DNA from: a virus
IMG/VR virus record: IMGVR_UViG_3300006927_000060
Location: 1-27,256 of that record
Strand: one strand, 5' to 3'
Length of the DNA stretch: 27,256 nt
The notes below the pieces were generated by a model. The model did no database searches, had not been told where the DNA came from, and saw only the letters and a program-made list of their open reading frames with translations. Of this stretch, positions 4,533 to 26,648 are shown piece by piece. The number at the start of each line of letters is the position of its first letter. The first letter of the stretch is position 1. The position numbers and the translations under genes were made by a program.

Positions 4533-7500
4533 ATGGTTTATATTGGAAGTAGTCGAGTATATCCAAATAACACAGAAGGAATGATAGGTCCAACTGGTCC
4601 GTCAGGTCCAATGGGACCAGTCGGGTCTTTTGATGGATCTACTTCTGGTCTTACCGGCCCAACTGGACCAACAGGATATTATATAGTAGAGGGATATACT
4701 GCAAGTGATTCTTTCCATATTAAATTATCAAATGATATTGGATTTACTCTTGACAATTTATTAGATTTAGAAAACAATCTATATGATGCATATGGTATTA
4801 CGATGCCTGTGCCTGTTGGGTTTACTGGTGGAAATATTTTTGATGAGTATTTACAAGGTGCTTCTGGGACTACATTCTTTTTTAAATCAATAACCGGCGG
4901 AGCAAATATAACAGTAACTTCGACGGACAATAGTATTATTATTAAAAGTTCGTCAAATTCGTTCTCTGGGGTAACTCTTGGTGCAATAACTGACGAAAAG
5001 GTAATTATAACATCTTCTTCAAATAGTGATGCTTTACAGGATCAAGTGATATCATCATCTATAAGTATAATACCCGAATCTGGTATTACTGGTGCTCTTG
5101 ATTTAGAATATAATAATGTATTCAATCCATATTCTTTGAATAAACTTTCTGTTGGACCAATCCAAGAAACTGAACTTGTTGGTATTACAGGTGGTCCATG
5201 TTTAGGTGGTCCTTGTGTTCAGGGAGAAGGTATACTTTTAGATATTCGTGATGGTTCTGTTATTAAAATAGCAACACCAATAGGCATTCAGGGTATTACT
5301 GGAGAATTTAATAGTCTAGGGTGGTTTTCTTTTACTGCGTTCATTGACGGCAATGATCTGTGGGACGTACCATCTGATATAAAATTTGAAAATGACACTT
5401 CTCTTGGATGTGGTTTAAATATTGTTCATTTTACTTATGATCCAACATTATCATCTTCTAATTGGAAAGCATCTTTAGTTTCAAAAAACTACAATAAAGA
5501 CGATTGTCCAATTATAGAAAACTCAATTGGTTCATGCTGCTACATAAATGAATCTGGATCACAAGAGTGTTTGGAGTATATGACTAGTGAAGATTGCACA
5601 ATCAATTATGGTGGTAATTTTTCTTTATTGACACCATGCTCTTCTTCCTGTTCTGAATTAATAATAGGAATTTGTTGCATTGGTCCAGATTGTCACCAAG
5701 ATATGTCAAACACAGAATGTGATTATTTTGGAGGAATTTTCTGGGATTATATTCCATGTCCACCAAATAGTTCTTATGGAGTGTGCTGCCTTTCTGGTAA
5801 TAGGTGTGAGACAAACACATTAATAGGATATTGTGATTCTTCTGGTGGAACGTGGTATTCTTATGATGTTGGTGCTGATTGTGGTTGGTGTTTAGATAAA
5901 CCTGAAGATACGGGTGCATGTTGTCCTGCCAATAGTGGGGACTGTTATCAAACAACTGGAGACAAATGTATCTCTCCATGGAATTTCTTAGGAGTAGGAA
6001 CCGAGTGTTCACAATGTGGTAATATTCTGGGTTCGGCTTGCTCGACGGAGGTGACAAGTTGTATAGACAATATCACCAACGATGAAAGCCCAGGATACCC
6101 ATATATTTGGTCTCCTGTTCCTTGCTCACAAAATAATACTTGTAGTTCCGGAGCATGTTGTACACCAGACAACGGGGGTGATTTTTTCACTTGCAGATCA
6201 AATATACTGGGATATAATTGTACTGGTACATTCTACCCAAATACTAGTTGTAGTGGATTAAGTGATGAACAATGTCCGGCGGCACCGGAAGATCATGATT
6301 TCTGGTGTTGCACGTTGTACGCCGTGTGTAGTGGTTATGACTGCTGCTCTGATTGTACGCTCGGGAAGTGTTTAGATCCCAATGATGATTGCAGCGCTTG
6401 TTGTTATGCAGCGGCCAAAGGCTGGTTCCTTGACGGCAACCCACCCGGTAATTATGTTTGTACGGGGCCATATAACACGCAAGACTATGATCCATCTGTT
6501 CAATGTCCTTCGTGGGTTATAGATCAAGAGTTAATTTATCCCCCCTGCAACGCCACTTGCACGGCCGGTTCGGGCTGTGATGATGTTTGTACTGGAAGTG
6601 TATATGTAGATGATGAGTATGTTTACGCATGTCCATCCTGCGGCGGTTGTGCTGGGTCTGAATGTCCTGGTTGTTGCACCGGCGTCTCCGAGGCGGCAAG
6701 AACAGCCGAAGATGTGACAAATTGTGCTGATTGCGATGTTGTTGGTGAAGATTTCTGCTGTGATCCGTGTCAACAAACCGGATCTTGTTGTGTTAATGTT
6801 GCAACAGATGATCTTCAAGATGAATATATTTGCATAATACCAACACTGGACGACGGAACTCCATTTGGATGTATAAGTGAACTTCAGTGTGAAATTTTAG
6901 ATGGAACTTGGGTAGAGGGTGGCGTTTGTGGTGAGATTGATTGTTGTGAACATATGCCTTTGTTGGGCGCGTGTTGTGTGTTTGATAATTCGTTAAATCA
7001 ATATATTTGTACTATTGCAACACCGACAAATTGTCTTAATTCTGGTGGTCTCTTTATGGGACATGAAACATCCTGTGATGATATGTTGTGTGGATGTGAA
7101 GCATATGGTGCATGTTGTATTCCTAACTTTGATAATTCGACGTACACATGTGAAGAAACTACTGGAACTAATTGTACACAATTAGAAGGAATATTTGTAG
7201 AAAATTCACTATGTGGAAATACTGATTGTAATGAAATATCATTCACTGGTGCTTGTTGTAATGAATATTATGGAACATGCGCAGATAACGTTTCTATTAC
7301 TGATTGTACTGGAACTTTTCACTTCCAAGATACCTGCGATAGTATTGTTAAAAATAACAGTCTACTATTAGATCCCAGATTAGATCCCACAGATTCACAA
7401 GAAAATAGTTTCAATACATCCTATCTTCAATGGAAAGCGTGGCCCGGCAAAAGTCAATATCCCTTTGGTGCAGAGTGTGAAGATTTATCTTGTTCTTATT

Positions 7501-10187
7501 GCGGTGATTCTTCTGGTGATTCTCATTGCATCAACTGTACAATAGATGATTCTGTTTTCAAATATCACAATAATGATCCTGGATATGTTGGATATCATTG
7601 CCCGTCTTGTGCTGAATATGGTAGATGTTGCGTTTCTAAATGGTGGAGTGTTAAAGAGGATTTAGAAAATAATAGTTCGATTAATAGTGCAGAAGAGGCT
7701 CTAGATTATGTAGATAATGACCCACAGCATGAAGGATTAGATGGAACAGAAACATATTGTTTATCTTCAACTGAAGGTATGTGTGACATGATGATGGGTC
7801 ATTTTGAACCATCATTCCAGCAGTATGAAAACTCTAGTTGTCCCGATGCTCCAGGAGGAGAATGTTGCCCCTCCAGTGACCCAACATATAACTCTTTCTG
7901 TGATTTGGATCAAGTCGTTTGTTGCTCACGAACGAGTGGTCATGGTGGGTTGGAAATGAGAGATAGTTGGTATGATTGTGTTTTTGGAGATTTTGATACA
8001 ACTGGAAAATTTGGTGTTCCTTTATCTCCAAGATATAAAACGGTACAAGATGTGCCCGACGAGATTAAAAGCAAATTAAGTTGTGGTCAAGCATATGCTG
8101 GTGGTGTTTGTTGTTATAAACATCACGTTGGGTCTGACTGCGATGGTAACTGGGTGGCACCGTGGTTAGAGAATGTATGTTCAGAAATTGCTGAAGAAGA
8201 CTGTCATTTTAATGGTAGTACTCGTTACTATAAATGGCTAGATGGGGCGGATTGTTCAGACAACCCATGTCACCGGGGAATTCATTGTTGTACTGATGGT
8301 GAATGCTATGAGTTTACTGTTAGGGATGGTCAACGGGATTGTGGTGCAGGCATTGAGGAATACGCCACTACATTCCCCACCGCTGCTACTGTATGTGGCA
8401 GGGCGGGGGGGAGTTCCGACATTCTCGGCTCGCTTGGTATGTGTTGTGCAGATAACGCGGGTACAGAAGAATGTGATGGGTTAACACCCTCTTCCTGTAC
8501 GGGTGCTTGTTGCGTTAATGGTAATTGTGAGGACCTGCTTCTATCAGAGTGTGACGGCGGTTCTACTGGTAACTATCTTGGACCTGGCACTGAATGTAAG
8601 TATATAACTTGCGGAGGAAGATGCTGTCCGTCCTACGACGATACAGCGGGGACTCAGTGCCAACATGCGGTGGACTTGGCTGCATGTCGAGACCTTAATG
8701 GTTATAATGCCAACTTTGATGGTCATAATACAGTCTGTGGAGATGCTACATGTGAAAATAACGGCGGACTTGGTGTTGACACGCAGTGTTTTACTACTGG
8801 AGCATGTTGTATTCAAGGTAGTTGCACAGATATGGAGATACCAAATGAAGACGGCTATGACGATGCTATAGGCCCAGAGGAATGTCATGCTCAAAATGGT
8901 ACTTGGCACTACCGAGGTTCGTGTTGTAGTAGACCTGATTTTGATTGTAATACCAAATGGGAACGGGGTGCGTGTTGTTGGACCGACCAGTACGGCCGGA
9001 ACCGATGTTGGAATGCGTCTCGGCAGTTTTGTGACCAGGCATTCGGCGGTGGGGAATGGCAAGGAATTAATACTACATGTAATGATGAAAACCTTCCGGG
9101 TATGTGTTATCCAGAGGGTGCATGTTGTCTACCTGATGGTACTTGTCAATATACTTCGAAGCAATCCTGCTTGTCTTGGGGAGAAACTTCATATTTTTAT
9201 GAACCAAGATCAGGAGAACAATATTACACCGACTGTGACGACGATGTCGTAAGGTGTGAACGGGGAACTTGTTGTATTCCCAACCCCGATGAACTCCATG
9301 ATGCAGAATGTAAAAATACAATATGGCCTCGATGCAAAGAATATCTCAAAAATTCTTGTAACACTTATACTGACTATTGGGAAGATAATTTCGGAGATTA
9401 TGAAGGCGAAACCACTCTTTGTTTCCTGGATAACTTCTACGACGCCATGGACGAATATCTTTGGACACTAGATAATGCTTGTGGTTCTAATGGGTATAAC
9501 TGCAATTTCCCGAGAGTTGCATGTTGTGATGATGGTGTTTGTATTGATAATCGATATGATTATGCTGGTTGTGAGGCCGCTGGTGGTATAGTACTTGATC
9601 CTGGTGATCCAGATTGGTCTTCATGTGATGATCTCAATTGTGGCCATGTGGTTGCTGATGTTTGTGTTGCTCCGGAATTACACAGTGTTCAAACTAATCC
9701 CAGTTGGCGATACCCCACTCTCGTTTCTGGTATACCTGCATGTACATGTGGTGCTGGTGGTGACGTGGGTGCATGTTGGAAGACAAAGGGTAGCGGGAAC
9801 AATTGTGTTAATATAACGTGTGCGACCTGTGTTGATGATTATCGTGGTATATTCTTAGGAGAAGGAAGCGATTGCAACCAAGATGATAGTCTTGGAGATT
9901 TCCTTCCCGGCGCGGAGGGCACATGTTGGATGGAGCCGAGTATCGAAGACCTGACGTATACGGAGTGTCAACAATTCGCCGGATTCTTTACAGCGAAGAG
10001 TGCCTGTTTCGATGACGACGGCGATTGCAGCAACAGCACCAGTATTATACCATTCAAGCAATGTTGTGTGGAAGGGAATGTAGATGTATGTGTCGATGAG
10101 GGCAAGACGGATGAATACCCACGATACTGGAGAGCACCCACTCCAGATCATCCTTGGTTCTATAGTTGCGATGGAGATTACCCATAA
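4533..10187 (+). CDS. Giant cysteine-rich repeat protein with collagen-like N-terminus (putative virion fibre/adhesin)
   Basis: 1884 residues. Start chosen because MVYIGSSR matches the start of the preceding protein (MIIGSSR); the ribosome site is weak (GGGA), so coupling to the upstream gene is likely. Residues 19-48 are collagen-like. Residues ~95-145 (LQGASGTTFFFKSITGG) match the beta-rich segment of the previous gene. From ~332 to the end there are about two dozen units of the form G-x-CC-x(4-15)-C-x(5-12)-C-x-GG-x-[FW]-x-C, with cysteine near one residue in seven in the units counted. Similar GACC repeats occur, from memory, in secreted proteins of environmental bacteria such as Planctomycetes. 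No transmembrane segment or enzyme motif is seen. Either a disulphide-rich or a metal-binding fold is possible. It sits in the adhesin cluster next to neck genes, so a virion surface role is inferred, not shown. Confidence 0.6.
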   Translation: MVYIGSSRVYPNNTEGMIGPTGPSGPMGPVGSFDGSTSGLTGPTGPTGYYIVEGYTASDSFHIKLSNDIGFTLDNLLDLENNLYDAYGITMPVPVGFTGGNIFDEYLQGASGTTFFFKSITGGANITVTSTDNSIIIKSSSNSFSGVTLGAITDEKVIITSSSNSDALQDQVISSSISIIPESGITGALDLEYNNVFNPYSLNKLSVGPIQETELVGITGGPCLGGPCVQGEGILLDIRDGSVIKIATPIGIQGITGEFNSLGWFSFTAFIDGNDLWDVPSDIKFENDTSLGCGLNIVHFTYDPTLSSSNWKASLVSKNYNKDDCPIIENSIGSCCYINESGSQECLEYMTSEDCTINYGGNFSLLTPCSSSCSELIIGICCIGPDCHQDMSNTECDYFGGIFWDYIPCPPNSSYGVCCLSGNRCETNTLIGYCDSSGGTWYSYDVGADCGWCLDKPEDTGACCPANSGDCYQTTGDKCISPWNFLGVGTECSQCGNILGSACSTEVTSCIDNITNDESPGYPYIWSPVPCSQNNTCSSGACCTPDNGGDFFTCRSNILGYNCTGTFYPNTSCSGLSDEQCPAAPEDHDFWCCTLYAVCSGYDCCSDCTLGKCLDPNDDCSACCYAAAKGWFLDGNPPGNYVCTGPYNTQDYDPSVQCPSWVIDQELIYPPCNATCTAGSGCDDVCTGSVYVDDEYVYACPSCGGCAGSECPGCCTGVSEAARTAEDVTNCADCDVVGEDFCCDPCQQTGSCCVNVATDDLQDEYICIIPTLDDGTPFGCISELQCEILDGTWVEGGVCGEIDCCEHMPLLGACCVFDNSLNQYICTIATPTNCLNSGGLFMGHETSCDDMLCGCEAYGACCIPNFDNSTYTCEETTGTNCTQLEGIFVENSLCGNTDCNEISFTGACCNEYYGTCADNVSITDCTGTFHFQDTCDSIVKNNSLLLDPRLDPTDSQENSFNTSYLQWKAWPGKSQYPFGAECEDLSCSYCGDSSGDSHCINCTIDDSVFKYHNNDPGYVGYHCPSCAEYGRCCVSKWWSVKEDLENNSSINSAEEALDYVDNDPQHEGLDGTETYCLSSTEGMCDMMMGHFEPSFQQYENSSCPDAPGGECCPSSDPTYNSFCDLDQVVCCSRTSGHGGLEMRDSWYDCVFGDFDTTGKFGVPLSPRYKTVQDVPDEIKSKLSCGQAYAGGVCCYKHHVGSDCDGNWVAPWLENVCSEIAEEDCHFNGSTRYYKWLDGADCSDNPCHRGIHCCTDGECYEFTVRDGQRDCGAGIEEYATTFPTAATVCGRAGGSSDILGSLGMCCADNAGTEECDGLTPSSCTGACCVNGNCEDLLLSECDGGSTGNYLGPGTECKYITCGGRCCPSYDDTAGTQCQHAVDLAACRDLNGYNANFDGHNTVCGDATCENNGGLGVDTQCFTTGACCIQGSCTDMEIPNEDGYDDAIGPEECHAQNGTWHYRGSCCSRPDFDCNTKWERGACCWTDQYGRNRCWNASRQFCDQAFGGGEWQGINTTCNDENLPGMCYPEGACCLPDGTCQYTSKQSCLSWGETSYFYEPRSGEQYYTDCDDDVVRCERGTCCIPNPDELHDAECKNTIWPRCKEYLKNSCNTYTDYWEDNFGDYEGETTLCFLDNFYDAMDEYLWTLDNACGSNGYNCNFPRVACCDDGVCIDNRYDYAGCEAAGGIVLDPGDPDWSSCDDLNCGHVVADVCVAPELHSVQTNPSWRYPTLVSGIPACTCGAGGDVGACWKTKGSGNNCVNITCATCVDDYRGIFLGEGSDCNQDDSLGDFLPGAEGTCWMEPSIEDLTYTECQQFAGFFTAKSACFDDDGDCSNSTSIIPFKQCCVEGNVDVCVDEGKTDEYPRYWRAPTPDHPWFYSCDGDYP
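4587..4676 (+). repeat. Collagen-like Gly-x-y run in the giant Cys-rich gene
   Basis: Two short runs of GPT/GPS/GPM/GPV and GLT/GPT triplets separated by a Ser/Gly stretch encode residues 19-48. It corresponds in position to the collagen-like run of the preceding gene. Confidence 0.75.
5526..10107 (+). repeat. Array of about two dozen cysteine-rich GACC-type protein repeats
   Basis: Units start at motifs such as GSCC, GICC, GVCC, GACC, GRCC, GECC, GMCC and GTCC and are about 30-80 residues long. They diverge strongly in sequence but keep the CC opener and a GG-x-F/W before a late cysteine. The last units replace CC with CW (GACW, GTCW). Low DNA identity between units means the array is old or under diversifying pressure rather than freshly duplicated. 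Confidence 0.75.
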
Positions 10188-10207
10188 ATGATAAAAGGTA
10201 CATAAAA

Positions 10208-11161
10208 ATGACAACTGATACAAAATCAATTTGCAGATATATCCTTAAAGAAACGGATGATTACACTTCTTTTGAAATAAAAAGTTGTCTTGATTCTTTG
10301 AGAACAGGGGAAATTAAATCATATAAGAATGTTTTTGGAGTTGATGTCTTAGAACGAAATGACTTTTTTTGTAATAAAGCCTGCTATAAAACCTTCATAG
10401 AAACAATCACAAATAAAAAGGCAATAGCATCAGTTAAAAGAACGTATTGGTCACCAAAACAATCATCGCCATATAAAACTAAAAACTACAACGAAGAAAA
10501 TATAATAGAAATAACAATAAATGACAGCAGTGATATTTTGTCGTTCTGTGAAGCCCACGAACCACATGATGATATTATTGTTAGAGATGAATCAAGCAAA
10601 GGATTCAAAAGAGAGTCGAAAAAATTATACATCATCACATCAGACAAATCATTTAATCCAGAAGATTTTATAAATGACTATTCTGAAAATGTTAATTTTG
10701 TAACATCAAATCTTGATTCTTCTGGGTATGGTGTTTATACTACAGCAACAAATGAAGAACTTCTGAATTATGGTGATTTCGGAAAACACAAGTATTATGA
10801 CACATGTGACAAAAGTACACCTTGTTGTGATAATTGTTCAATATATGCTATTGGGAACTGCATAACAATAAATTCATGTAAATGGATATTTTCTGATGGA
10901 ATGTATGATTTAGTCTGTTCTGATGAACACAAATGTTCCGAAGCATACCCCATGTCAATCGATATATTACCAACAGAATTCTATAATTCAGATCTAAATA
11001 GCGATAAAAGAAAAATATGGAAAAAATTAATAAACGAATCCAAAACAATCAAAGAAAGTTCAAAAAAGAATTTATTCATTCCAGAATTAAATCAATGTTT
11101 ATGGTTTGAATGTATACCAAATTCGTTAAATGATCCCTGTAAAAAATACGGAAAATGTTAA
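10208..11161 (+). CDS. Hypothetical protein with C-terminal cysteine clusters
   Basis: Not recognised. The reading frame can be extended back to an ATG at 10166 inside the preceding gene, but the ATG at 10208 (MTTDTKSICRYIL) lies just past the upstream stop and has AAAGG about 7-8 bases before it, so 317 residues is preferred. The first ~200 residues are charged and poor in cysteine apart from CNKACYKTF. A dense cluster follows, STPCCDNCSIYAIGNC then VCSDEHKC, and the last 25 residues hold four more cysteines (CLWFECIP, PCKKYGKC). This loosely echoes the CC units of the upstream giant protein, which may mean a partner, chaperone or small structural protein of that fibre. No catalytic motif, signal peptide or membrane span is visible. 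Codon use is AT-rich, unlike the GC-richer end of the upstream gene. Confidence 0.7.
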   Translation: MTTDTKSICRYILKETDDYTSFEIKSCLDSLRTGEIKSYKNVFGVDVLERNDFFCNKACYKTFIETITNKKAIASVKRTYWSPKQSSPYKTKNYNEENIIEITINDSSDILSFCEAHEPHDDIIVRDESSKGFKRESKKLYIITSDKSFNPEDFINDYSENVNFVTSNLDSSGYGVYTTATNEELLNYGDFGKHKYYDTCDKSTPCCDNCSIYAIGNCITINSCKWIFSDGMYDLVCSDEHKCSEAYPMSIDILPTEFYNSDLNSDKRKIWKKLINESKTIKESSKKNLFIPELNQCLWFECIPNSLNDPCKKYGKC

Positions 11162-11181
11162 TTGACAATTAATAAATCTAA

Positions 11182-11189
11182 TATACAAT
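11182..11189 (+). promoter_or_regulatory. Weak candidate late-promoter-like octamer (TATACAAT)
   Basis: TATACAAT lies in the 53-base gap before the gene at 11215, 33 bases from its start codon. It resembles the TATACATA octamers seen ahead of gp13, gp20 and gp22 but is a poorer match to T4 late TATAAATA. Confidence 0.25.
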
Positions 11190-11214
11190 ATGAAATAAAG
11201 GAGAGTTTTATTAT

Positions 11215-11817
11215 ATGAGTGAGTATAATATGAATCAAACCCCAGAAGAAAAAAAAGACTGTGGGTGCGGTAAAAATAAGAATTTTAAAAAACAAGAACT
11301 TCCAGATCAAGGTGGTTTTTTAAAGAGAAAGATGAGCATGATTCAGAGTTTTGCATCATCTTTAACTTCTAGGGGAGTGAATAACAAAAAGATCAACAGA
11401 GCAAATAAACAACTTAGAGTCTTAAGTTGTATTGGAAATGATTTTATAGGTGGTGATCTTCCCCAATGTGAACAGTTAAAAATTAGTAAAGTTGATTCAA
11501 CAAAACGATATTGTGGGGCATGTGGTTGTGGTGACAGAAAAGGAACGTGGTTAATTTCAGATTCAAATGAATATGGTAAATTAGATTACCCAAAGGTGGG
11601 GTGTCCGTTGCAAATGCCAGGATTTACCAATTATCGAGAAAGTCTACCAGAAGAAGCACAAGAACCAACCACCAGAAAGTACTTCATTGAACATATTTCA
11701 TATAAAGAGTTAGAAATAATACCAGTAACACTCCCGCAATTAACAGAAAAACAAGAAAAGGCTATGGAAGAATCTCAAAAAAGAATGCAAAAGATGAGAG
11801 AAGAAAAACAAAAGTAA
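11215..11817 (+). CDS. Hypothetical protein with Cys-rich (possibly zinc-binding) motif
   Basis: 200 residues, with AAAGGAGAG about 9 bases before the ATG. Not confidently recognised. An N-terminal KKDCGCGKNKNF is followed by a basic helix-prone stretch. A central CGACGCGDRKGTWL and a later VGCPLQMPGF give a Cys-x2-Cys-x-Cys...Cys pattern that could bind zinc. The last ~30 residues form a highly charged helix rich in Lys, Glu and Met. I recall similar small proteins next to structural genes in marine T4-like phages, but cannot name a family. It is the last gene before an intrinsic terminator, so it closes the adhesin-side unit; it does not overlap the neck genes. A structural accessory or assembly role is possible but unsupported. 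Confidence 0.7.
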   Translation: MSEYNMNQTPEEKKDCGCGKNKNFKKQELPDQGGFLKRKMSMIQSFASSLTSRGVNNKKINRANKQLRVLSCIGNDFIGGDLPQCEQLKISKVDSTKRYCGACGCGDRKGTWLISDSNEYGKLDYPKVGCPLQMPGFTNYRESLPEEAQEPTTRKYFIEHISYKELEIIPVTLPQLTEKQEKAMEESQKRMQKMREEKQK

Positions 11818-11859
11818 TAAGAAGAAAATTAAGAATAAATTCTCCAATAGTGGGAAAAA

Positions 11860-11881
11860 GCACCTAATTAGGTGCTTTTTT
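11860..11881 (+). terminator. Intrinsic terminator after the adhesin/hypothetical block
   Basis: A perfect 16-base palindrome (GCACCTAATTAGGTGC, 11860-11875), extended by A5 before and T6 after, forms a hairpin followed by a T-rich tract. It sits in the 92-base gap between the gene ending at 11817 and gp13. The A-stem-T symmetry may let it act on both strands, though no opposing gene is present. Confidence 0.85.
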
Positions 11882-11885
11882 CTTT

Positions 11886-11893
11886 TATACATA
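11886..11893 (+). promoter_or_regulatory. Candidate T4-type late promoter before gp13 (TATACATA)
   Basis: TATACATA differs at one base from the T4 late promoter TATAAATA. It lies directly after the terminator and 24 bases before the gp13 start. The identical octamer occurs before gp20 and gp22. A gp55-like sigma factor would be the expected reader; no such gene is in the window. Confidence 0.5.
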
Positions 11894-11909
11894 TAATTAG
11901 GAGAATCTT

Positions 11910-12716
11910 ATGCCAATACCAACGTCTAGAGAAAGTATAATAGAATATTCATTTCGTTCTCTTGGGTATCCTGTGGTGGAGATTAATGTTGATCATGGAC
12001 AGGCTCAAGATAGATTAGATGATGCTTTAGATTATTTCGTTGAAAGGCATTTTGATGGAGTCGAACGTGCTTATTTCAAATATCAAATAACACAAACTGA
12101 CATTACAAATAAATACATTGACACTGATTCTTTGGGAGCGGTTAATGGGTTTGGTGGAGATGGACCAACAGGTAAAGATATTGTTACTATAAGTCGAATA
12201 CTTCAATTTGGTGATTTTGCCAATATTAGTATGTTTGATGTTAGATATCAAATGGCGTTAATGGACTATTTTGGTATCAATCGGGGCTTGGGTGGAAATA
12301 GTTCTATGGGTCTTGCAAGTTACGACTCCACCAAAAGATATATCAGTCTATTAACTGATTTTTTCCAACCAGAAAAGAATGTCAGATTTAGTAAGGTAAC
12401 TAATAAACTTCATATTGATATGAACTGGGAAAATGAAATAACAGCCAATGAATATCTAATAATTGACGCATATGTTAAATTAGATCCGGAAACTTTTCCA
12501 GAAATTTGGAATGACCGGTATTTAAAGAGATATCTAACGGCTCTTATCAAAAAACAATGGGGTCAGAACCTTTCTAAGTTTGAAGGTATTCAGTTGCCGG
12601 GTGGCGTTTCTTTTAATGGAAATCAACTTGTTGCCCAGGGAGAAGATGAGATATTACGAATCGAAGAAGAAATTAAATCACAAGTCGAACTTCCAATTGA
12701 CTTCATGACAGGTTGA
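11910..12716 (+). CDS. 13: Neck protein gp13 (head completion)
   Basis: 268 residues, AGGAGA before the ATG. Matches the gp13 family of T4-like phages (T4 gp13 is ~309 residues): N-terminal PTSRESIIEYSFRSLGYPVV, then VDHGQAQDRLDDALDYFVERHFDG, and a C-terminal helical part with RYLTALIKKQWGQNLSKFEG. In T4, gp13 and gp14 form the neck that closes the DNA-filled head below the portal and gives the tail its docking site. Position directly before gp14 and gp15 is the expected order. It follows a terminator and a late-promoter-like octamer, so it probably starts a transcription unit. It ends in TGA, 16 bases before gp14. No anomalies seen. Confidence 0.88.
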   Translation: MPIPTSRESIIEYSFRSLGYPVVEINVDHGQAQDRLDDALDYFVERHFDGVERAYFKYQITQTDITNKYIDTDSLGAVNGFGGDGPTGKDIVTISRILQFGDFANISMFDVRYQMALMDYFGINRGLGGNSSMGLASYDSTKRYISLLTDFFQPEKNVRFSKVTNKLHIDMNWENEITANEYLIIDAYVKLDPETFPEIWNDRYLKRYLTALIKKQWGQNLSKFEGIQLPGGVSFNGNQLVAQGEDEILRIEEEIKSQVELPIDFMTG

Positions 12717-12732
12717 GCAAGGAGACCTTTGG

Positions 12733-13659
12733 ATGGCTCGAAATCCATATTTTAAAGAATATTCTGGCGAACAAACCCTAACTGATGATGTTACAATAGA
12801 GATCATCAAAATGATGGGTAAGGATATGGTATACATTCCTAGAACTCTCGTTAATGTGGATACTCTCTTTGGGGAAGATGACATCTCAAAATTTGATGAT
12901 GGATATACTATTGAGATGTACATAGAATCGGTAAATGGATTTTCGGGTAGAGGCGATGTTCTTTCAAAGTTTGGTATTGAAATTAAAGATAATGTTGAAT
13001 TAGTCGTTTCAAGAAAACGATTTGAGGATGCAGTTGGAACGTATGAAAATATAACAAGACCAAGAGAAGGTGACTTGATTTATTTTCCTCTCTCTAAGAC
13101 AGTATTTGAGATTAATTTTGTTGAACACGAAAACCCATTCTATCAACTTGGTAAACTCTTTACTTATAAATTATCATGTGAAACCTTCACCTATAGCCAT
13201 GAGGAAATTGATACGGGTATATCTGATATTGATAAGGTTGAAACAGACAGAAAGAAATTTGCAGTTGAACTGACGTTGGGAACTAGTCATACTGTATCAT
13301 ATCCAAACTTCTTTGAGGGGGAAAGTGTATATCAAGTTCTAGGCGTCACTGGAGCGGGTGCTACTTTAGGAAACGCAACATCTACTGCAATTGCTGTTGA
13401 TTGGGACTTAATCACAACTAAATTGAATATAACAAATATTGTTGGGTCATTCTCAACAAGTGCCGGAGAAACCATCAAGGGTGCGGTCTCTGGTGCTGAA
13501 TATGACGTTTCTTCTAAGACTACAACTACTATTATTGTGCCCAACGAGCCGGTGACAGATACTCCAGTGGGAGACAACGAAGAGATTGAATTGATCAGAG
13601 ATGTTGAAGATATATTTGACTTTACTGAAACTGATCCTTTTTCGGAAGGTACATATTAG
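12733..13659 (+). CDS. 14: Neck protein gp14 (head completion)
   Basis: 308 residues, AAGGAGA ahead of the ATG. Characteristic gp14 segments: RNPYFKEYSGEQTLTDD (3-19), MVYIPRTLVNVDTLFGED (32-49), VNGFSGRGDVLSKFGIE (67-83), RPREGDLIYFPL (109-120) and FVEHENPFYQLGKLFTYKLSCE (129-150). T4 gp14 is ~256 residues; the extra length here is a Gly/Thr/Val-rich beta segment at ~195-262 (FFEGESVYQVLGV ... GAVSGAEYDVSS) that looks like a small inserted domain. It acts with gp13 in the neck. The gene ends in TAG, the only clearly terminal TAG in the window, and gp15 begins 3 bases later in the same frame; see the findings. Confidence 0.87.
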   Translation: MARNPYFKEYSGEQTLTDDVTIEIIKMMGKDMVYIPRTLVNVDTLFGEDDISKFDDGYTIEMYIESVNGFSGRGDVLSKFGIEIKDNVELVVSRKRFEDAVGTYENITRPREGDLIYFPLSKTVFEINFVEHENPFYQLGKLFTYKLSCETFTYSHEEIDTGISDIDKVETDRKKFAVELTLGTSHTVSYPNFFEGESVYQVLGVTGAGATLGNATSTAIAVDWDLITTKLNITNIVGSFSTSAGETIKGAVSGAEYDVSSKTTTTIIVPNEPVTDTPVGDNEEIELIRDVEDIFDFTETDPFSEGTY

Positions 13660-13662
13660 AAA

Positions 13663-14223
13663 ATGTTTAGTGCATTTTACAACGAATCATTACGAAAATT
13701 AGTCATTGGATTTGGCAGTCTATTCAATGAAATTCATATTATTCGTAGAAATTCTGATGGTACAGAAAAAGAAAGAATTCGTATTCCGATATCTTATGGG
13801 CCAAAAGAAAAATTCATAAGAAGAATAACAGAATCCAGTTCTATTTCAGATAGTAACAAAGTTCAAATAACTCTACCAAGATTGGGATTTGAAATTCTCA
13901 ATATCAATTATGATCCCATTAGAAAAACAAATAAATTAGGCAAAACTAAAGAAAAAGATATTGATTATAGCGTTAAGTGGAACTATAGAGAAGTACCTTA
14001 TAATATAACATTCGGTTTATATTCGTTCACCAGAACTATGGACGATAACCTACAAGTGATAGAGCAAATAACACCGTTTTTCACACCAGAATTTATCGTT
14101 TCAATGAATGTAAATGATATTAACAAAAACATTGATATCCCCATTGTGTTGAATGCAGTTAATACATCTGAAGATTATGAAGGCGAATTTGATTATAGAA
14201 GAAGTATTATAAGTACTTTTTAG
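13663..14223 (+). CDS. 15: Proximal tail sheath stabiliser gp15, interrupted by amber codon 187
   Basis: Recognisable as the gp15 family, whose hexamer caps the tail and joins it to the neck: MFSAFYNESLRKLVIGFGSL, EKERIRIPISYGPKEKFIRR, then VEQITPFFTPEF-type sequence and FDYRRSII near the end. T4 gp15 is 272 residues; here translation meets TAG after 186. Sequence with gp15 character (FTAKTYVYGP) continues in frame after the TAG for 67 codons to TGA at 14422-14424, giving 253 residues if read through. So the natural product is either the full protein via suppression or recoding, a truncated version, or the TAG is a mutation or sequencing error. The gene starts 3 bases after gp14 in the same frame; the likely ribosome site is GGAAGG, rather far away (~13 bases). 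Confidence 0.85.
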   Translation: MFSAFYNESLRKLVIGFGSLFNEIHIIRRNSDGTEKERIRIPISYGPKEKFIRRITESSSISDSNKVQITLPRLGFEILNINYDPIRKTNKLGKTKEKDIDYSVKWNYREVPYNITFGLYSFTRTMDDNLQVIEQITPFFTPEFIVSMNVNDINKNIDIPIVLNAVNTSEDYEGEFDYRRSIISTF

Positions 14224-14424
14224 TTTACTGCGAAAACATACGTTTATGGACCAGAAAAGACATCTTCAATAATACTAGATGCAAGTGTGGAATTGTATAA
14301 TGTCGAAGGTGACGCATGGCCATCAATTTCTGATCCATATACCTACAGAGTGCGTGCAACAGGTGATACTGGTGGAAATACTGGTGGTTCGACAGCAGGA
14401 AGGAATGAAGTAGTTTATGAGTGA
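14224..14424 (+). other. 15: C-terminal continuation of gp15 beyond the in-frame TAG
   Basis: 67 codons in the gp15 frame: FTAKTYVYGPEKTSSI at the start, then a short acidic/beta stretch and a Gly/Thr-rich tail (TGDTGGNTGG), ending NEVVYE at TGA (14422-14424). The TGA overlaps the gp16 start (14417) by 8 bases, the spacing expected of an intact gp15-gp16 junction. There is no in-frame ATG and no ribosome site in the segment, so it is unlikely to be a separate gene. It is best read as the missing C-terminal third-to-quarter of gp15. Confidence 0.8.
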
Positions 14425-14875
14425 TAAAAAATCTGTTAATGAAAAAATATCTGATGTGTTTGATGTTGAATATGAAGTTAAAGAATCAAAAGCAATAGAG
14501 AAATCTAAACCTATTGTTGTTTCTGAAGACAGATCAGAAGAAAGACACATCAAAGAAGATTATCGCATAGCACGAGAAAATATGCAGGAATTGATTGGTA
14601 TTGGAAAAGAAGCGATAGACGGAATATTGAAGGTTGCTTACGAGGGAGATTCTCCCAGAGCGTATGAAGTTGCTTCTCAAATGATAAAAAATATTGCTGA
14701 GATAAATCAAGATTTGGTTTCTATTCATAAACAAATGAAAGAAATTAATAAAGAAGAAATTAACATCAGTCAAACAAACAATTCAATTTATGTTGGTTCT
14801 ACAACAGATCTACAGGATCTTATAAATGAAGCAAGAAGTAGAACAAAGGCGATAGTGGATAATAATGGTAAGTAA
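14417..14875 (+). CDS. 16: Small terminase subunit gp16
   Basis: 152 residues, close to T4 gp16 (164). The AGGAAGGAA ribosome site lies inside the gp15 tail. The N-terminal ~50 residues are charged and likely flexible; a central pair of helices follows (ENMQELIGIGKEAIDGIL, then DSPRAYEVASQMIKNIAEIN), with a coiled-coil region (DLVSIHKQMKEINKEE) and a polar tail. The DSPRAYEVASQMI segment is the family's most conserved piece. gp16 forms a ring that recognises viral DNA and stimulates the gp17 motor. It overlaps gp17 by 11 bases, so the two subunits are probably translationally coupled. Confidence 0.87.
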   Translation: MSDKKSVNEKISDVFDVEYEVKESKAIEKSKPIVVSEDRSEERHIKEDYRIARENMQELIGIGKEAIDGILKVAYEGDSPRAYEVASQMIKNIAEINQDLVSIHKQMKEINKEEINISQTNNSIYVGSTTDLQDLINEARSRTKAIVDNNGK

Positions 14876-16523
14876 AAAGGGTGGATATCTCGGCAACGTA
14901 AACTTAAAAGAAGCCGGGGTGAAAATAGAATTCACTAAAGAGCAAGTTGAAGAATATATAAAATGTGCTAAAGATCCTTCTTATTTTATTGAAAAATACA
15001 TCAAAGTGGTTTCTCTTGATGAGGGTCTTATACCGTTTAATCTTTATGATTATCAATCAGAACTTGTGGAAATTGTCCACAACAATCGCTTTGTTATTGC
15101 AAAACTACCAAGACAGAGTGGTAAAAGTTTAACATTCATATCATATATTCTCCATTATGTTCTTTTCAACCAAAACATGAATGTTGCAGTTCTTGCAAAT
15201 AAGCAAGCAACTGCAAAAGAAATCCTAAGTCGATTAAAACTCACATATGAATACCTCCCATTATGGTTGCAACAAGGAATATTAGAATGGAACAAAAATT
15301 CCATTCAATTGGAAAATGGTTCTAAAATTCTTGCATCCTCCACTTCCTCATCAGCAATTCGTGGTGGTTCATTTAATCTCATTTTACTTGATGAATTTGC
15401 CCACGTTCCAAATAATGTAGCAGAAGAATTCTTTAGTTCGGTGTATCCTACCATCAGTGCTGGTCAAACCACAAAGGTGTTCATGGTGTCTACCCCCAAT
15501 GGTTTGAATATGTATTATTACTTCTGGAGGGGGGCCACCAAAAAGGAAGGCGAAAAAGGAAAGAATGAATATAAAGCAATAGAAGTAAATTGGAATGAGG
15601 TTCCTCAATATCCGGGTGGTCCGTTACGAGATGAAAAATGGAAAAATCAGACCATTTCAAACACCAGTGAACATCAATTCAAAATTGAATTTGAATGTCA
15701 ATTTATTGGTAGTCAAAATACTCTAATATCTTCTGAAAAACTAAAAGAATTAACATATTCCGAACCATCCGTAAAAAACAACGACGGATTATGGATATAT
15801 GAAAAGTTTAAAAAAAATCATTCATATTTTATCACAGTAGATACATCTGGTGGACAGGGAGATGATTTTAGTGCCTTTACTGTAATTGATGCCACGGAAA
15901 TGCCTTATAAATTAGTAGCAAGATATCGAAATAATCTTGTATCACCTATGGTATTTCCTACTGCCATTATTGCAGTTGCTAGACAATACAATAATGCACA
16001 TGTGTTGATTGAGGTTAATGGTATTGGTTCACAAGTAGCAGATATTATCCATTATGATCTAGAATATGAAAATCTTCTAAAATGCTCAAATAAGGGAGCA
16101 AAGGGTCAAATTATTTCCTCGGGATTTGGTAAATCTGGAAATACTATGAAAATGGGAGTAACCACAAGTGTCCCTGTTAAAAAAGTTGGTTGTTCTATTT
16201 TAAAAAGTTTAATCGAAGAAGATAAACTAATAATAAAAGATATTGAAATTATTAATGAATTGACCACATTTATTGCAAAAAGACAATCTTTTGAAGCAGA
16301 TGATGGTCACACTGATGACTTAGTAATGAGTTTAGTGATTTTTGGTTGGATGACAAGACAAGATTATTTCAAAGAATTGGTGGACGGAGACATAAGAACT
16401 GACATATATGAAGAAGAACTAGAACGAGTAAACGATGAAATGACACCATTTGGTTTTATATCTTCTGGATCAGAAGATGATGGAGAATGGGACGGAGAAG
16501 ACCGGTGGTATCCCGCACTCTAA
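14865..16523 (+). CDS. 17: Large terminase subunit gp17 (packaging ATPase/nuclease)
   Basis: 552 residues (T4 gp17: 610). N-terminal ATPase domain: Walker A PRQSGKS (82-88), Walker B LILLDE (172-177) followed by FAHVP, and a coupling motif VSTPNG (208-213). C-terminal RNase H-like nuclease domain: first acidic residue in ITVDTSGG (D326), second in VLIEVNG (E383), third in GHTDDLVMSL (D484/D485). All key catalytic residues are present. The protein docks on the portal (gp20), pumps DNA into the prohead and cuts concatemers. It begins inside gp16 and is followed by a 46-base gap with a promoter-like octamer before gp18. No intein or intron is seen, although terminase genes often host them. Confidence 0.95.
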   Translation: MVSKKGGYLGNVNLKEAGVKIEFTKEQVEEYIKCAKDPSYFIEKYIKVVSLDEGLIPFNLYDYQSELVEIVHNNRFVIAKLPRQSGKSLTFISYILHYVLFNQNMNVAVLANKQATAKEILSRLKLTYEYLPLWLQQGILEWNKNSIQLENGSKILASSTSSSAIRGGSFNLILLDEFAHVPNNVAEEFFSSVYPTISAGQTTKVFMVSTPNGLNMYYYFWRGATKKEGEKGKNEYKAIEVNWNEVPQYPGGPLRDEKWKNQTISNTSEHQFKIEFECQFIGSQNTLISSEKLKELTYSEPSVKNNDGLWIYEKFKKNHSYFITVDTSGGQGDDFSAFTVIDATEMPYKLVARYRNNLVSPMVFPTAIIAVARQYNNAHVLIEVNGIGSQVADIIHYDLEYENLLKCSNKGAKGQIISSGFGKSGNTMKMGVTTSVPVKKVGCSILKSLIEEDKLIIKDIEIINELTTFIAKRQSFEADDGHTDDLVMSLVIFGWMTRQDYFKELVDGDIRTDIYEEELERVNDEMTPFGFISSGSEDDGEWDGEDRWYPAL

Positions 16524-16534
16524 ATATCATTTTG

Positions 16535-16542
16535 TCTAAATA
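16535..16542 (+). promoter_or_regulatory. Candidate T4-type late promoter before gp18 (TCTAAATA)
   Basis: TCTAAATA differs at one base from TATAAATA and lies 35 bases before the gp18 start. It overlaps the left arm of a small inverted repeat, CTAAATA (16536-16542) and TATTTAG (16552-16558), whose right arm abuts the gp18 ribosome site AGGAGAG. Confidence 0.4.
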
Positions 16543-16569
16543 ATAGGATTATATTTAGGAGAGAATTAC

Positions 16570-17847
16570 ATGGCTAGACCAAATGTTACAGTAATAATTG
16601 ATGACCAGAGTTTTGTGATTCCGGGAACCGAATCTGGTGGATTGCATAGAGCCGGTTTCATATCTGATAATGCTCTCATTCCTAACTTGGGAACAACCGC
16701 AGAACGAAATAGTGGTATCATGACCATTGGTAGTATGGGTGACTGGTATGGTAGATTGTCCTCTCTTGATCCAATTCAGTCCGGGCTGAGTGCTGGCAAT
16801 GGTGGTAACCATTCGTCAATTAACAGTGGAGGTACTGGTGCTAGATGGCCAGGTGGCCCTACTGGAGCGTGGGAAGGTGAATGGTGGACAGTTCATAATT
16901 ACCTCCAATATGGTGGTGTTGCAGTTGTGGGATCCACTGGTGAAGAAGAAAGCACCGTAGGAGCCTTAGATGCTTTATCAAACAAACAAGTAGCACTGGA
17001 TAGTGTTGTTGCTATGAGTAGCGCAAGAACTGGTTTAACTTTAGGTGGTGTTCTCGTCGGAGCGAAATATTATAGTGTTGTTGGTGATATTGCTAATGTT
17101 AATACGGTAGTTAATGCCAGACTCGATTGTATTGGGGTATATCCACATAAGGAGGGTGAGACTTTAAATGACTCATGGACAGATGCGGCAGCATCCACTT
17201 CTATTACACCAAACGAATACGCTATAGCAGTATATGGAGCAAAGAGATTCTTGGGAACAAGCAATGATGCTGATAATGATGTCAAAGAACTGAATTGTGC
17301 TCCTGATGTGGCTGGATGTTTAGCACGAACAGATAGAGAATCTGAATATTGGTTCTCTCCTGCTGGATTTAAACGAGGTGATATATTAGACAGCATGAGA
17401 TTGGTTTACAATCCAACAGATGCAGAGCAAGATGAGATGTATGCTCAGAAGATCAACCCGGTTGTAACATTCCCGGGCGAAGGAACTGTACTCTTTGGTG
17501 ATAAAACATTAGCAGCCGCGACTTCGACTCTAAGTAGAATTAATGTTTCTAGATTGTTTATATACCTAAAGAAAATTGTTGGTTCTGCTGCACGTTCACT
17601 TCTTTTTGAAATGAATGACGAAGACACCAGAAATGCTTTCGTAAATTCTATTGAGCCTCTACTAGAACGTATAAAGGGCCGACGAGGAGTTTATGATTAT
17701 AAGGTAGTATGTGACGAGAGTAATAACCCTGGAAGTATTGTTGATGTTAATCAATTTGTGGCTGATGTGTTTATTAAACCTACTAAATCTATCAACTTCA
17801 TTAGAATAACATTTACAAACGTTAATACTTCAGTTGATTTAGGCTGA
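16570..17847 (+). CDS. 18: Contractile tail sheath protein gp18 (compact form)
   Basis: 425 residues, TAGGAGAG before the ATG. The conserved C-terminal sheath domain is clear: TSTLSRINVSRLFIYLKK, IEPLLERIKGRRGVYDYKVV and VADVFIKPTKSINFIRITF. The N-terminus (MARPNVTVIIDDQSFVIPG) suits the strand that knits into neighbouring subunits. T4 gp18 is 659 residues and many marine relatives are longer still; here the protruding middle domains seem reduced to a short Gly-rich insertion around 60-100 (GGNHSSINSGGTGARWPGG) and a following core. It polymerises around the gp19 tube and contracts on infection. It ends TGA followed immediately by TAG. gp19 follows after 15 bases. Confidence 0.9.
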   Translation: MARPNVTVIIDDQSFVIPGTESGGLHRAGFISDNALIPNLGTTAERNSGIMTIGSMGDWYGRLSSLDPIQSGLSAGNGGNHSSINSGGTGARWPGGPTGAWEGEWWTVHNYLQYGGVAVVGSTGEEESTVGALDALSNKQVALDSVVAMSSARTGLTLGGVLVGAKYYSVVGDIANVNTVVNARLDCIGVYPHKEGETLNDSWTDAAASTSITPNEYAIAVYGAKRFLGTSNDADNDVKELNCAPDVAGCLARTDRESEYWFSPAGFKRGDILDSMRLVYNPTDAEQDEMYAQKINPVVTFPGEGTVLFGDKTLAAATSTLSRINVSRLFIYLKKIVGSAARSLLFEMNDEDTRNAFVNSIEPLLERIKGRRGVYDYKVVCDESNNPGSIVDVNQFVADVFIKPTKSINFIRITFTNVNTSVDLG

Positions 17848-17862
17848 TAGAAGGAGAGAATT

Positions 17863-18390
17863 ATGCCAATTAGTTCAAATATTGCTGATTTTAGAAGTAG
17901 ATTTAAGGGCGGAAGTCGCCCAAACAGATTTGTTGTGGATGGTAATATCCCAACATCATCTGATGTTGGGGAATCTAACTTCTTAATTAAGGCTACAACC
18001 CTACCTCCTTCAACAGTTAGTATCATTCCTGTTCCTTTCCGTGGACGAATCTTGAAAGTTCCTGGAGATAGAATGTTCATGGAGTGGGATATTGTTGTTC
18101 TTGATGACCCAAAAACCAGAGATTTAAGAAAAGAATTTTTGGAATGGTCCCATGCAATAAATTCGCATTCAGGTAACTTAATAAACCACCAAGACTTCTT
18201 TAGCCAGTGGACAGTCACTCAATTAGATCATAATGATGACAGCGAAATTCCTGGTCGAAGACTTGTATTACACAATTGTTGGCCAGTTGAAGTATCTGGT
18301 GTTGAGTTAACTCACGATGTTCCAAATACATTGGTTGAGTGGTCTGTGAGGATAGCGTATGATTTCTGGACAGCAGAGGGCATTGAGTGA
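17863..18390 (+). CDS. 19: Tail tube protein gp19
   Basis: 175 residues (T4 gp19: 163), strong AAGGAGAG site. Family features: N-terminal SSNIADFRSRFKGGSRPNRF, FLIKATTLPPSTVSIIPVPF, RMFMEWDIVVLDD and a C-terminal NTLVEWSVRIAYDFW. gp19 forms stacked hexameric rings making the rigid inner tube through which DNA passes. Position between sheath and portal is canonical. It ends TGA and is followed by a 48-base gap with a TATACATA octamer and a palindrome. Confidence 0.93.
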   Translation: MPISSNIADFRSRFKGGSRPNRFVVDGNIPTSSDVGESNFLIKATTLPPSTVSIIPVPFRGRILKVPGDRMFMEWDIVVLDDPKTRDLRKEFLEWSHAINSHSGNLINHQDFFSQWTVTQLDHNDDSEIPGRRLVLHNCWPVEVSGVELTHDVPNTLVEWSVRIAYDFWTAEGIE

Positions 18391-18398
18391 TATACATA
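18391..18398 (+). promoter_or_regulatory. Candidate T4-type late promoter before gp20 (TATACATA)
   Basis: Identical octamer to those before gp13 and gp22, immediately after the gp19 stop and 48 bases before the portal start. Confidence 0.45.
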
Positions 18399-18412
18399 TT
18401 AGTATACTAATA
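18397..18412. repeat. Perfect 16-base palindrome in the gp19-gp20 gap
   Basis: TATTAGTATACTAATA is fully self-complementary and overlaps the end of the TATACATA octamer by two bases. It has no T-tract and is AT-rich, so it is a poor terminator; it could be an operator-like site or a chance AT palindrome. Confidence 0.5.
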
Positions 18413-18438
18413 GAAATATAATATGGAGTTTTTGAAAA

Positions 18439-19962
18439 ATGCCTATAGACCTCTTTGGATTTAACTTTGGAAAAAAGAAAACCAGCAAAAAGGTTTCGGA
18501 AGAAATTCCGAAATCTTTTGTTGCACCGGATAGTTATGATGGTGCATTTACTGTAGAAACAGGTGGTTTCTTTGGGACATATGTTGATTTTTCAGGTTCT
18601 ATCCGAGACGAAAATCAATTAATCAATCGCTATCGCTCCTTGGCTTTATATCCAGAATGCGACAGTGCTATTGAAGATATTGTAAACGAAGCAATCGTTG
18701 CGGATAAAAGCAAAAATATGATCAATATTGATTTAGATAATATTAATCTATCTGATAATATTAAATCTAAAATAACCGCAGAATTTAAAAATGTATTCAA
18801 TACACTAGACTTTAAAAATAAAGGTCATGAAATTTTTAGACGATGGTATATCGATAGTAAAGTTTATTATCATGTAATATTAGACAATAAGAATCCCCTA
18901 AGAGGAATTTTAGAACTTAGACCCATTGATCCTGTAAAAATTAAAAAAATAAGAAAAATTGAAAAGAAGCACGATAGAAATTATACCAACACAGGTAATG
19001 TCCCACTCATCAATAATATAGATGAATTCTTTGTTTATACTAATACGGATAAAGATTCCATATATCAAACTACAAGTTCTGGTATAAAAATTCATAAAGA
19101 TTCTATTATCTACTCCCATTCTGGTGTTGTGGATTCTTCTTCTAAAAAGGTTGTAGGATACCTACAAAAAGCATTACGTCCTCTTAATATGCTTAGACAA
19201 ATTGAAGATGCTGTTGTAATTTATCGTATATCTCGCGCACCAGAAAGAAGAATTTTCTATATCGACGTTGGTAATCTACCAAAACATAAAGCCGAACAAT
19301 ATATTCGTGGTATTATGAATAAATATCGAAATAAATTAGTATATGATTCTGCTACTGGTGAAGTTAGAGATGACAGACAGCATCTTCATATGTTAGAAGA
19401 TTTTTGGCTTCCTAGAAGAGAGGGCGGTAGGGGAACTGAAATTCAAACCTTAAGTGGTGGTGAGAATTTGGGTGAAATGGATGATGTAGATTATCTACTT
19501 CGGAAATTATACAAATCATTAAATGTTCCTATATCTCGTCTTGAATCTGAAAATGGATTCAATATGGGTCGTTCTGCTGAAATTACTCGGGATGAAGTTA
19601 AATTTTATAAATTCATAGACAGGCTTCAGCATCGATTTTCTGCTCTATTTTTGGATATTCTTCGTATTCAATTGCTGTGTAAAGGAATAATCACAGAAAA
19701 TGATTGGAAGGGAATAAAACAAGATATTTCTTTTATTTGGAATAAAGATAATTATTTCTCAGAACTTAAAGAAAATGAACTCATAAGAGAACGTCTTGAT
19801 ATGCTAAATATATTAAATGAATACATAGGTAGTTACTATTCTGTTAATTGGATAAGAAGAACCATTCTCAAACAAGACGATTTTGAAATAGAACAAATGG
19901 ACAAAGAAATCGAAAAAGAACGAGAAATGGGATTAATACAAGACCAAGAGGAAGAGATCTAA
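18439..19962 (+). CDS. 20: Portal vertex protein gp20
   Basis: 507 residues (T4 gp20: 524). Strong family segments: FFGTYVDFSGSIRDENQLINRYR, YPECDSAIEDIVNEAIV, IYRISRAPERRIFYIDVGNLP, AEQYIRGIMNKYRNKLVYD, EDFWLPRREGGRGTEI, and VPISRLESENGFNMGRSAEITRDE. The dodecameric portal sits at the unique head vertex, initiates prohead assembly with the core, docks gp17 during packaging and later holds gp13/14. The ribosome site GGAG lies 10 bases upstream. An earlier ATG at 18423 is out of frame. The gene ends TAA one base before the next ATG, so it is likely coupled to the core-protein gene. Confidence 0.95.
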   Translation: MPIDLFGFNFGKKKTSKKVSEEIPKSFVAPDSYDGAFTVETGGFFGTYVDFSGSIRDENQLINRYRSLALYPECDSAIEDIVNEAIVADKSKNMINIDLDNINLSDNIKSKITAEFKNVFNTLDFKNKGHEIFRRWYIDSKVYYHVILDNKNPLRGILELRPIDPVKIKKIRKIEKKHDRNYTNTGNVPLINNIDEFFVYTNTDKDSIYQTTSSGIKIHKDSIIYSHSGVVDSSSKKVVGYLQKALRPLNMLRQIEDAVVIYRISRAPERRIFYIDVGNLPKHKAEQYIRGIMNKYRNKLVYDSATGEVRDDRQHLHMLEDFWLPRREGGRGTEIQTLSGGENLGEMDDVDYLLRKLYKSLNVPISRLESENGFNMGRSAEITRDEVKFYKFIDRLQHRFSALFLDILRIQLLCKGIITENDWKGIKQDISFIWNKDNYFSELKENELIRERLDMLNILNEYIGSYYSVNWIRRTILKQDDFEIEQMDKEIEKEREMGLIQDQEEEI

Positions 19963-19963
19963 T

Positions 19964-20590
19964 ATGAACGAAAAGATTAAAAATATGTTGGAATTTATGG
20001 TCCATGATAATGTGGACGAATTTAAGGATCATTTTGACATCGCCCTGAAAGAAAAGGCTTCAAGCCATATCCAAAATATATCTAAAAATGTCTCTAGAGA
20101 TTTATTCAAAGATGTTCAAACAAATGAAGATTATGGCCGAAGTGGTATTAACACTGGTGTATATAAATTTGAGGATGAAAATGAAGCAACTAAATTTTTT
20201 GAATCTGCCATTAATGCTGGAATTTCCAAGAAAGATTTAAATGTTGCTGGAAGTGAAGTCCATGTTGGTGATATTTCTGATTCTGATATGGAAGAAACTT
20301 TATATGAATTAGCAAAGCAAATGAATGCTTCATTTACTGAAGAGAATAATTCATTCGCTTCAATAATTAATGCAGTTATAACTGAAAATAATGATATGTT
20401 TGTGTATACGCACAATGATGATAAAATTAAACTGACACCATATATTGTAGAAAATATAATAACACTCCATGATGGTTTAAACTTAGAGAATCAAAAAATT
20501 CTAAGAAATTCAATATTTGAAGACCGAAATTCATTTGATAGAATAGTCAATTTTGCAAAACAATATTCATCCAAGGGGACAGTATCATGA
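19964..20590 (+). CDS. Putative prohead core protein (in gp67 position)
   Basis: 208 residues. It lies between portal and protease, where T4 has the small core proteins gp67 and gp68, but it is longer than either (about 80 and 141). The first ~45 residues (NMLEFMVHDNVDEFKDHFDIAL, then KEKASSHIQN) form a helix-turn-helix pattern I recognise from marine T4-like prohead core proteins, and the same pattern opens the next gene. The remainder is acidic and helical with a middle GVYKFEDENEATKFFESAI segment. Inferred role: internal prohead scaffold component, later degraded by gp21. Start has AGAGGAAGAG upstream; the stop overlaps the next start (ATGA). Confidence 0.6.
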   Translation: MNEKIKNMLEFMVHDNVDEFKDHFDIALKEKASSHIQNISKNVSRDLFKDVQTNEDYGRSGINTGVYKFEDENEATKFFESAINAGISKKDLNVAGSEVHVGDISDSDMEETLYELAKQMNASFTEENNSFASIINAVITENNDMFVYTHNDDKIKLTPYIVENIITLHDGLNLENQKILRNSIFEDRNSFDRIVNFAKQYSSKGTVS

Positions 20591-20970
20591 CTTCAACTAA
20601 AAATATAATTGAAAATATATTAGATGAAAATATAATTTCTGCCAAAAAAAATATATCAAACATTTTATATTCTAAAATGTCGTCTATTTTAGAACAAAAA
20701 TGGGAAAATTATATTCCATTGATTTTTTCCCCTAAAGTAGAAAACAATGAGGATATTAATGAGGATGTTGCTGCTTCTCTTCTTTCTGTTCTTGATAATG
20801 TCCTTACAGAAAAGAAACGAGAATACAGAGACAGAGAAACGATATATGGTATTCCTAAAGATGAATATATGAAATTGACTGATGATATGAAAAGGAAGGT
20901 TAAAGAGCGTTTCTATTTTGAAAAAGACCGAGAAAAGAAGACAAGGTCTCGTCATAGGGGTAAAAGATGA
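20587..20970 (+). CDS. Putative prohead core protein (in gp68 position), basic C-terminus
   Basis: 127 residues, near T4 gp68 in size (141) and place. N-terminal residues 3-45 follow the same pattern as the preceding protein (KNIIENILDEN ... LYSKMSSILEQ). The C-terminal ~35 residues are strongly basic (MKRKVKERFYF, EKKTRSRHRGKR), which could bind DNA or the acidic scaffold gp22. It has an AAGGGGA ribosome site, overlaps the gene before by ATGA, and overlaps gp21 by ATGA. Function inferred from position and shape only. Confidence 0.6.
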   Translation: MTSTKNIIENILDENIISAKKNISNILYSKMSSILEQKWENYIPLIFSPKVENNEDINEDVAASLLSVLDNVLTEKKREYRDRETIYGIPKDEYMKLTDDMKRKVKERFYFEKDREKKTRSRHRGKR

Positions 20971-21614
20971 AACTAATAACTGAGATGACAGAAGATGTTG
21001 AATTCCTTACTGAAAAGGAAGAAAATGGTGAAAAACATTATTTCATTAATGGTGTTTTTATGCAAGCCGAACAAAAAAATAGAAATGGGAGAGTATATCC
21101 TAGTTCGATTTTAATGAATGAGGTCAAAAGATACAATTCTGAATACGTCAATAAAAATAGAGCACTTGGTGAATTGAACCACCCACAAGGTCCAACAGTT
21201 AATCTTGACAGAGTATCTCATATGATTAAAGAACTTAATAGTTCTGGAAATGATGTTGTTGGTAAAGCCAAAATTATGAACACCCCTATGGGTAAAATTG
21301 TGCAAAATCTCATGACTGAGGGAGCAAAATTGGGGGTGTCTTCTAGGGGGATGGGTTCTTTAAAATTAAATACTGAGGGCATCAACGAAGTTCAAAAAGA
21401 TTTCTTGTTATCCGCTATTGATATAGTAGCAGATCCATCTGCTCCTGGAGCCTTTGTCGAAGGCATCATGGAAGGTAAAGAGTGGATATGGGATAATGGT
21501 ATTCTTAAGGAAAAAACCATAAATGAATACTGTCAATTAATCCGTAAATCGAATCGTGTGAATCTAGAAGAAAGATGTCTAGATGCATTCAAGGATTTTC
21601 TATCAAAAATCTAA
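20967..21614 (+). CDS. 21: Prohead maturation protease gp21
   Basis: 215 residues (T4 gp21: 212). Serine protease of the herpesvirus-assemblin-like fold: catalytic His72 in GELNHPQGP, catalytic Ser in LGVSSRGMG (S125 or S126), and conserved IDIVADPSAPGAFVEG (~151-166). NRNGRVYP (39-45) is also typical. It is made inside the prohead, cleaves gp22, other core proteins and the N-terminus of gp23 at Leu/Ile-x-Glu sites, and destroys itself. It starts inside the previous gene (ATGA overlap). The stop is followed by a 39-base gap with a TATACATA octamer. Confidence 0.93.
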   Translation: MKLITEMTEDVEFLTEKEENGEKHYFINGVFMQAEQKNRNGRVYPSSILMNEVKRYNSEYVNKNRALGELNHPQGPTVNLDRVSHMIKELNSSGNDVVGKAKIMNTPMGKIVQNLMTEGAKLGVSSRGMGSLKLNTEGINEVQKDFLLSAIDIVADPSAPGAFVEGIMEGKEWIWDNGILKEKTINEYCQLIRKSNRVNLEERCLDAFKDFLSKI

Positions 21615-21618
21615 TTAT

Positions 21619-21626
21619 TATACATA
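21619..21626 (+). promoter_or_regulatory. Candidate T4-type late promoter before gp22 (TATACATA)
   Basis: Third identical TATACATA, 35 bases before the preferred gp22 start. Scaffold and capsid protein are needed in large amounts, so an extra promoter here makes sense. Confidence 0.5.
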
Positions 21627-21653
21627 AAATGACAAATATAGGAGTTGTTTCTT

Positions 21654-22679: not shown

Positions 22680-22689
22680 GGAGAAAAAA

Positions 22690-24060: not shown

Positions 24061-24093
24061 TTAGATTAGTTAATAATTAAACTTATTAAGAAT

Positions 24094-24128
24094 AAAGGGG
24101 AGTCCTTCGGGACTCCCCTTTTTCTTTT
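24094..24128 (+). terminator. Strong intrinsic terminator after gp23
   Basis: Perfect 12-bp stem AAAGGGGAGTCC (24094-24105) / GGACTCCCCTTT (24110-24121) with a stable TTCG tetraloop, followed by a T-rich tract (TTTTTCTTTT). It closes the capsid transcription unit. Confidence 0.93.
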
Positions 24129-24129
24129 G

Positions 24130-24137
24130 CATAAATA
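24130..24137 (+). promoter_or_regulatory. Candidate T4-type late promoter (CATAAATA) before the gp19-like gene
   Basis: CATAAATA matches TATAAATA at seven of eight bases. It lies right after the gp23 terminator and 27 bases before the next start, so it can restart transcription for the gp19-like, uvsY and uvsW genes. Confidence 0.5.
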
Positions 24138-24156
24138 AAGGGCAAGGAGTATACTT

Positions 24157-24699: not shown

Positions 24700-24714
24700 T
24701 ATAGGATCTTTATT

Positions 24715-26642: not shown

Positions 26643-26648
26643 GGGAAA

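Follow-up and report, generated by a model that had tools for sequence, protein, structure and literature searches.

The in-frame TAG that interrupts the tail terminator gene gp15 in this record of a marine phage is almost certainly a private single-base change without any function in decoding, whichever of two origins it has. Over the gp15 region, the window (that is, the whole 27,256-base stretch analyzed here) is 99.8%–100% identical to three IMG/VR contigs drawn from three further metagenomes (L002, L003, and L004; Table 1), in all of which this codon is GAG (Glu) rather than TAG, with G instead of T at position 14221. Over the 14,971 bases covered by near-identical sibling contigs (10096–20055 and 21073–26083), the only substitutions in the window are those at 14221 and 17268, the latter being a synonymous T/C difference in gp18 between the window and both L003 and L004. 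A DNA pattern scan of the viral_contigs collection, allowing either base at 14221 and requiring about 20 exact flanking bases per side, recovered only the same three contigs, each of which has G; such scans may omit the window's own record. Because GAG is present in all three siblings, the only near-identical contigs over the site, whose samples may not be fully independent of that of the window, the TAG is, within this collection, private to the record. The first-pass annotation had named reads with a sense codon at this position as the observation that would count against a functional stop, and such a codon was found, at the level of sibling contigs; it had also suggested CAG or TGG as the original codon, which the GAG of the siblings contradicts.

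Table 1. Features of the gp15 region and the near-identical contigs compared with the window (positions are those of the window).
Feature	Coordinates	Strand	Basis or details
gp14 (neck protein/head closure)	12733..13659	+	Pfam T4_neck-protein, PHROG head closure Hc2
gp15, tail terminator/tail sheath stabilizer	13663..14424	+	Pfam T4-gp15_tss, PHROG 227
In-frame TAG, gp15 codon 187	14221..14223	+	GAG in three near-identical contigs
gp15 C-terminal part, in frame past TAG	14224..14424	+	Conserved in relatives
gp16 (putative small terminase, by position)	14417..14875	+	Position between gp15 and gp17, and naming in the first-pass annotation
Contig L002 (3300025097)	10096-14766		1 difference in 4,671 b, the 14221 base
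Contig L003 (3300037634)	13134-17940		Differs at 14221, 17268, and by a 6-base in-frame deletion in gp18
Contig L004 (3300010151)	13124-20055		2 differences in 6,932 b: 14221 and 17268
Near-identical contig L231	21073-26083		Zero differences

The window letters place the gp15 start at the ATG at 13663 and bear out the first-pass description of a TAG at codon 187 followed by an open frame, which continues for 66 sense codons to a TGA (14422–14424) that overlaps the gp16 ATG (14417) by 8 bases. In the near-identical relatives, gp15 comprises 253 sense codons. With the TAG read through, the window's gp15 matched PF16724 (T4-gp15_tss) at 214.7 bits (E = 1.5e-63), well above the gathering cut-off of 25 bits, compared with 186.1 bits for the truncated open reading frame, and the Pfam and PHROG 227 matches cross the TAG and reach residue 217–221. 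The window's gp15 is thus a broken copy that is still a member of the T4-like gp15 (PF16724) family: its C-terminal part does not lie in one uninterrupted frame in this record and is intact in the siblings and in all relatives. That the segment past the TAG is the gp15 C-terminus, as the first-pass annotation held, is borne out by its conservation (FTAKTYVYGP is near-invariant among closer gp15 relatives), by the extent of the Pfam match, and by the alignment to T4 gp15 from F188 onward; the alignment of this segment with T4 TFEVNGWMYPP was likewise accurate. No in-frame ATG was found 3' of the TAG, again as previously described, though in-frame GTG (14287 and 14350) and TTG (14293) codons are present.

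More distant homologues also run through the site. All 147 other gp15 loci, which include some from the same or overlapping contigs and so are not all independent, cross it in one frame, the shortest being about 222 residues long. Among 103 distinct aligned homologues, no internal stop was found, and the residue at the site is most often Glu (34) or Asp (22), followed by Ser (16), Asn (12), Gln (7), Thr (7), Ala (3), and Arg (2). Among marine T4-like phages, the gp15 of Pelagibacter phage Mosig EXVC030M is 49% identical and those of cyanophages are approximately 39%–46% identical, with the matched stretch in each case extending past the TAG position. T4 gp15, whose hexameric ring completes the tail (PMC3004832), has the same domain and is likewise flanked upstream by gp14; its solved structures were matched at E = 2.7e-24, with chains 4HUH, 3J2M, and 4HUD aligning over residues 1–200, and its Thr191 aligns with the TAG of the window. 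Megablast of positions 10000–27256 against isolated phages returned only short matches in the gp23 region, so this phage is without a close isolate in that phage collection.

Other parts of the window are less readily assigned. Two very large open frames at 1033–4512 (1,159 aa) and 4533–10187 (1,884 aa) each have collagen-like repeats (GPTGPTG) close to the start and contain numerous cysteine-rich GACC...C...C units, and the GC fraction rises to 0.44–0.47 in parts of the second; a Pfam search of both frames gave no match. Upstream of the neck genes lies a 314-aa frame (10217–11158), for which a Pfam search likewise found nothing and a scan of viral_contigs confirmed only the near-identical contig L002. 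The 6 bases of gp18 (tail sheath) missing in frame from L003, at 16819–16826, are present in both the window and L004, and their absence could be an assembly error or a true variant.

How the stop arose is less firmly established than its private nature. The phage's normal gp15 would be a protein of 253 codons forming a hexameric tail terminator, and the T for G at 14221 in this record would turn its Glu codon GAG into TAG. The likeliest origin would be a consensus error, arising where coverage was low, where the last base of a T-run was miscalled, or where a single variant read entered the consensus, and a real amber mutant genome in the sample would be the less likely one; we infer that the former is roughly twice as probable as the latter. 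Both origins had been listed as options in the first-pass annotation and agree with a private one-base change. A random substitution in these genes was computed to yield a stop in approximately 5% of cases, and one stop among two changes can therefore be explained without a special cause. The changed base is preceded by TTTT, a run that the T lengthens, and this context fits a miscall weakly; Illumina errors follow G or C more often than A or T (PMC3334598), so the T-run argument is not a strong one. The competing origin, for which we estimate a lesser but appreciable probability, is a genuine amber mutation that segregates in the sampled population or was common there for a short time, which would leave gp15 truncated and defective unless complemented by co-infection or suppressed by the host. 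One transversion from the siblings' GAG suffices to produce it, the difference from two siblings at 17268 makes some true strain variation possible, and packaged phage genomes may carry lethal mutations. Nonetheless, a lethal variant must dominate the reads of a sample to become the consensus, no other record in the searched collection carries TAG here, and, because the T4 gp15 ring completes the tail (PMC3004832), a fixed truncation of gp15 is expected to be defective. It is very improbable that the strain sampled is a true amber variant that survives through co-infection or a suppressing host, with the TAG partly read as an amino acid. If a true amber allele did dominate this natural sample, it would be of mild interest, pointing to complementation or to suppression by the host.

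Readings in which the TAG serves a purpose, or in which gp15 is naturally short, fare far worse. The first-pass annotation had proposed stop-codon recoding; in this reading, TAG would be decoded as Glu, Gln, or another residue via a suppressor tRNA encoded elsewhere in the genome. The frame past the TAG is indeed open and conserved, and since the record covers only 27 kb of the genome, such a tRNA could lie beyond it. However, we consider recoding exceedingly improbable and reject it on the count of in-frame stops, on the use of TAG as the true stop of gp14, and on the tRNA scans, in addition to the GAG at codon 187 in the near-identical siblings. The 20 genes checked (8,365 codons) contain one in-frame stop, the TAG of gp15 itself, and the search for internal TAG in other genes that had been suggested as a check gave none in the other 19 genes (approximately 8,100 codons). 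The gp14 stop (TAG, 13657–13659) lies in the reading frame of gp15, a single AAA codon ahead of its ATG (TAG AAA ATG), and L002–L004 retain this stop; with gp14 and gp15 parted only by TAG AAA, suppression or recoding of TAG would fuse the two. Neither the 27 kb record nor the 11 relative loci scanned yielded any tRNA gene, including one with the CTA anticodon suggested as a further check. TAG-recoded phages (genetic code 15, crAss-like, phAss-1) do share with the window an in-frame TAG within a conserved gene, but they have many interrupted genes, with TAG inside 41 ORFs of phAss-1 (PMC10607447), and often a CTA suppressor tRNA, which is present in about half of those for which use of table 15 is predicted (PMC11210395); in the window, by contrast, a single codon in a single record is affected and TAG still ends gp14. 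Programmed readthrough yielding short and long forms of gp15 in this lineage, another earlier proposal, could likewise draw on the conserved in-frame continuation. A programmed stop should persist in contigs that are approximately 99.98% identical, and it does not, being absent from these and from every relative, which leaves readthrough unsupported. The 100 nt 3' of the TAG are no more stably folded than shuffled sequence (z = −0.38), giving no sign of a stimulatory RNA structure in that stretch, and the base directly after the TAG is U, which favors termination in Escherichia coli. We therefore reject readthrough at the level of the lineage, as the TAG is not conserved and the RNA folding result is null, and assign it a negligible probability. 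We regard it as hardly conceivable that gp15 naturally ends near residue 186, the downstream segment being a separate or decaying piece: the in-frame GTG and TTG codons downstream could be taken to favor this, yet the Pfam domain spans the site to residue 217, and homologue lengths lead us to reject it, all 147 other loci staying in one frame to about residue 222 or beyond. Homologues ending near residue 186, which the first-pass annotation had named as a contrary case, were looked for among these loci, and none was found.

On the sequences compared, special decoding is very probably not behind the TAG in gp15, which would instead be either an error of sequencing or assembly or a rare, broken mutant; the sibling contigs show that the TAG does not characterize the phage population. 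Before recoding is invoked for an isolated in-frame stop in a phage contig from a metagenome, near-identical contigs should be consulted, and here that comparison settles the recoding question.
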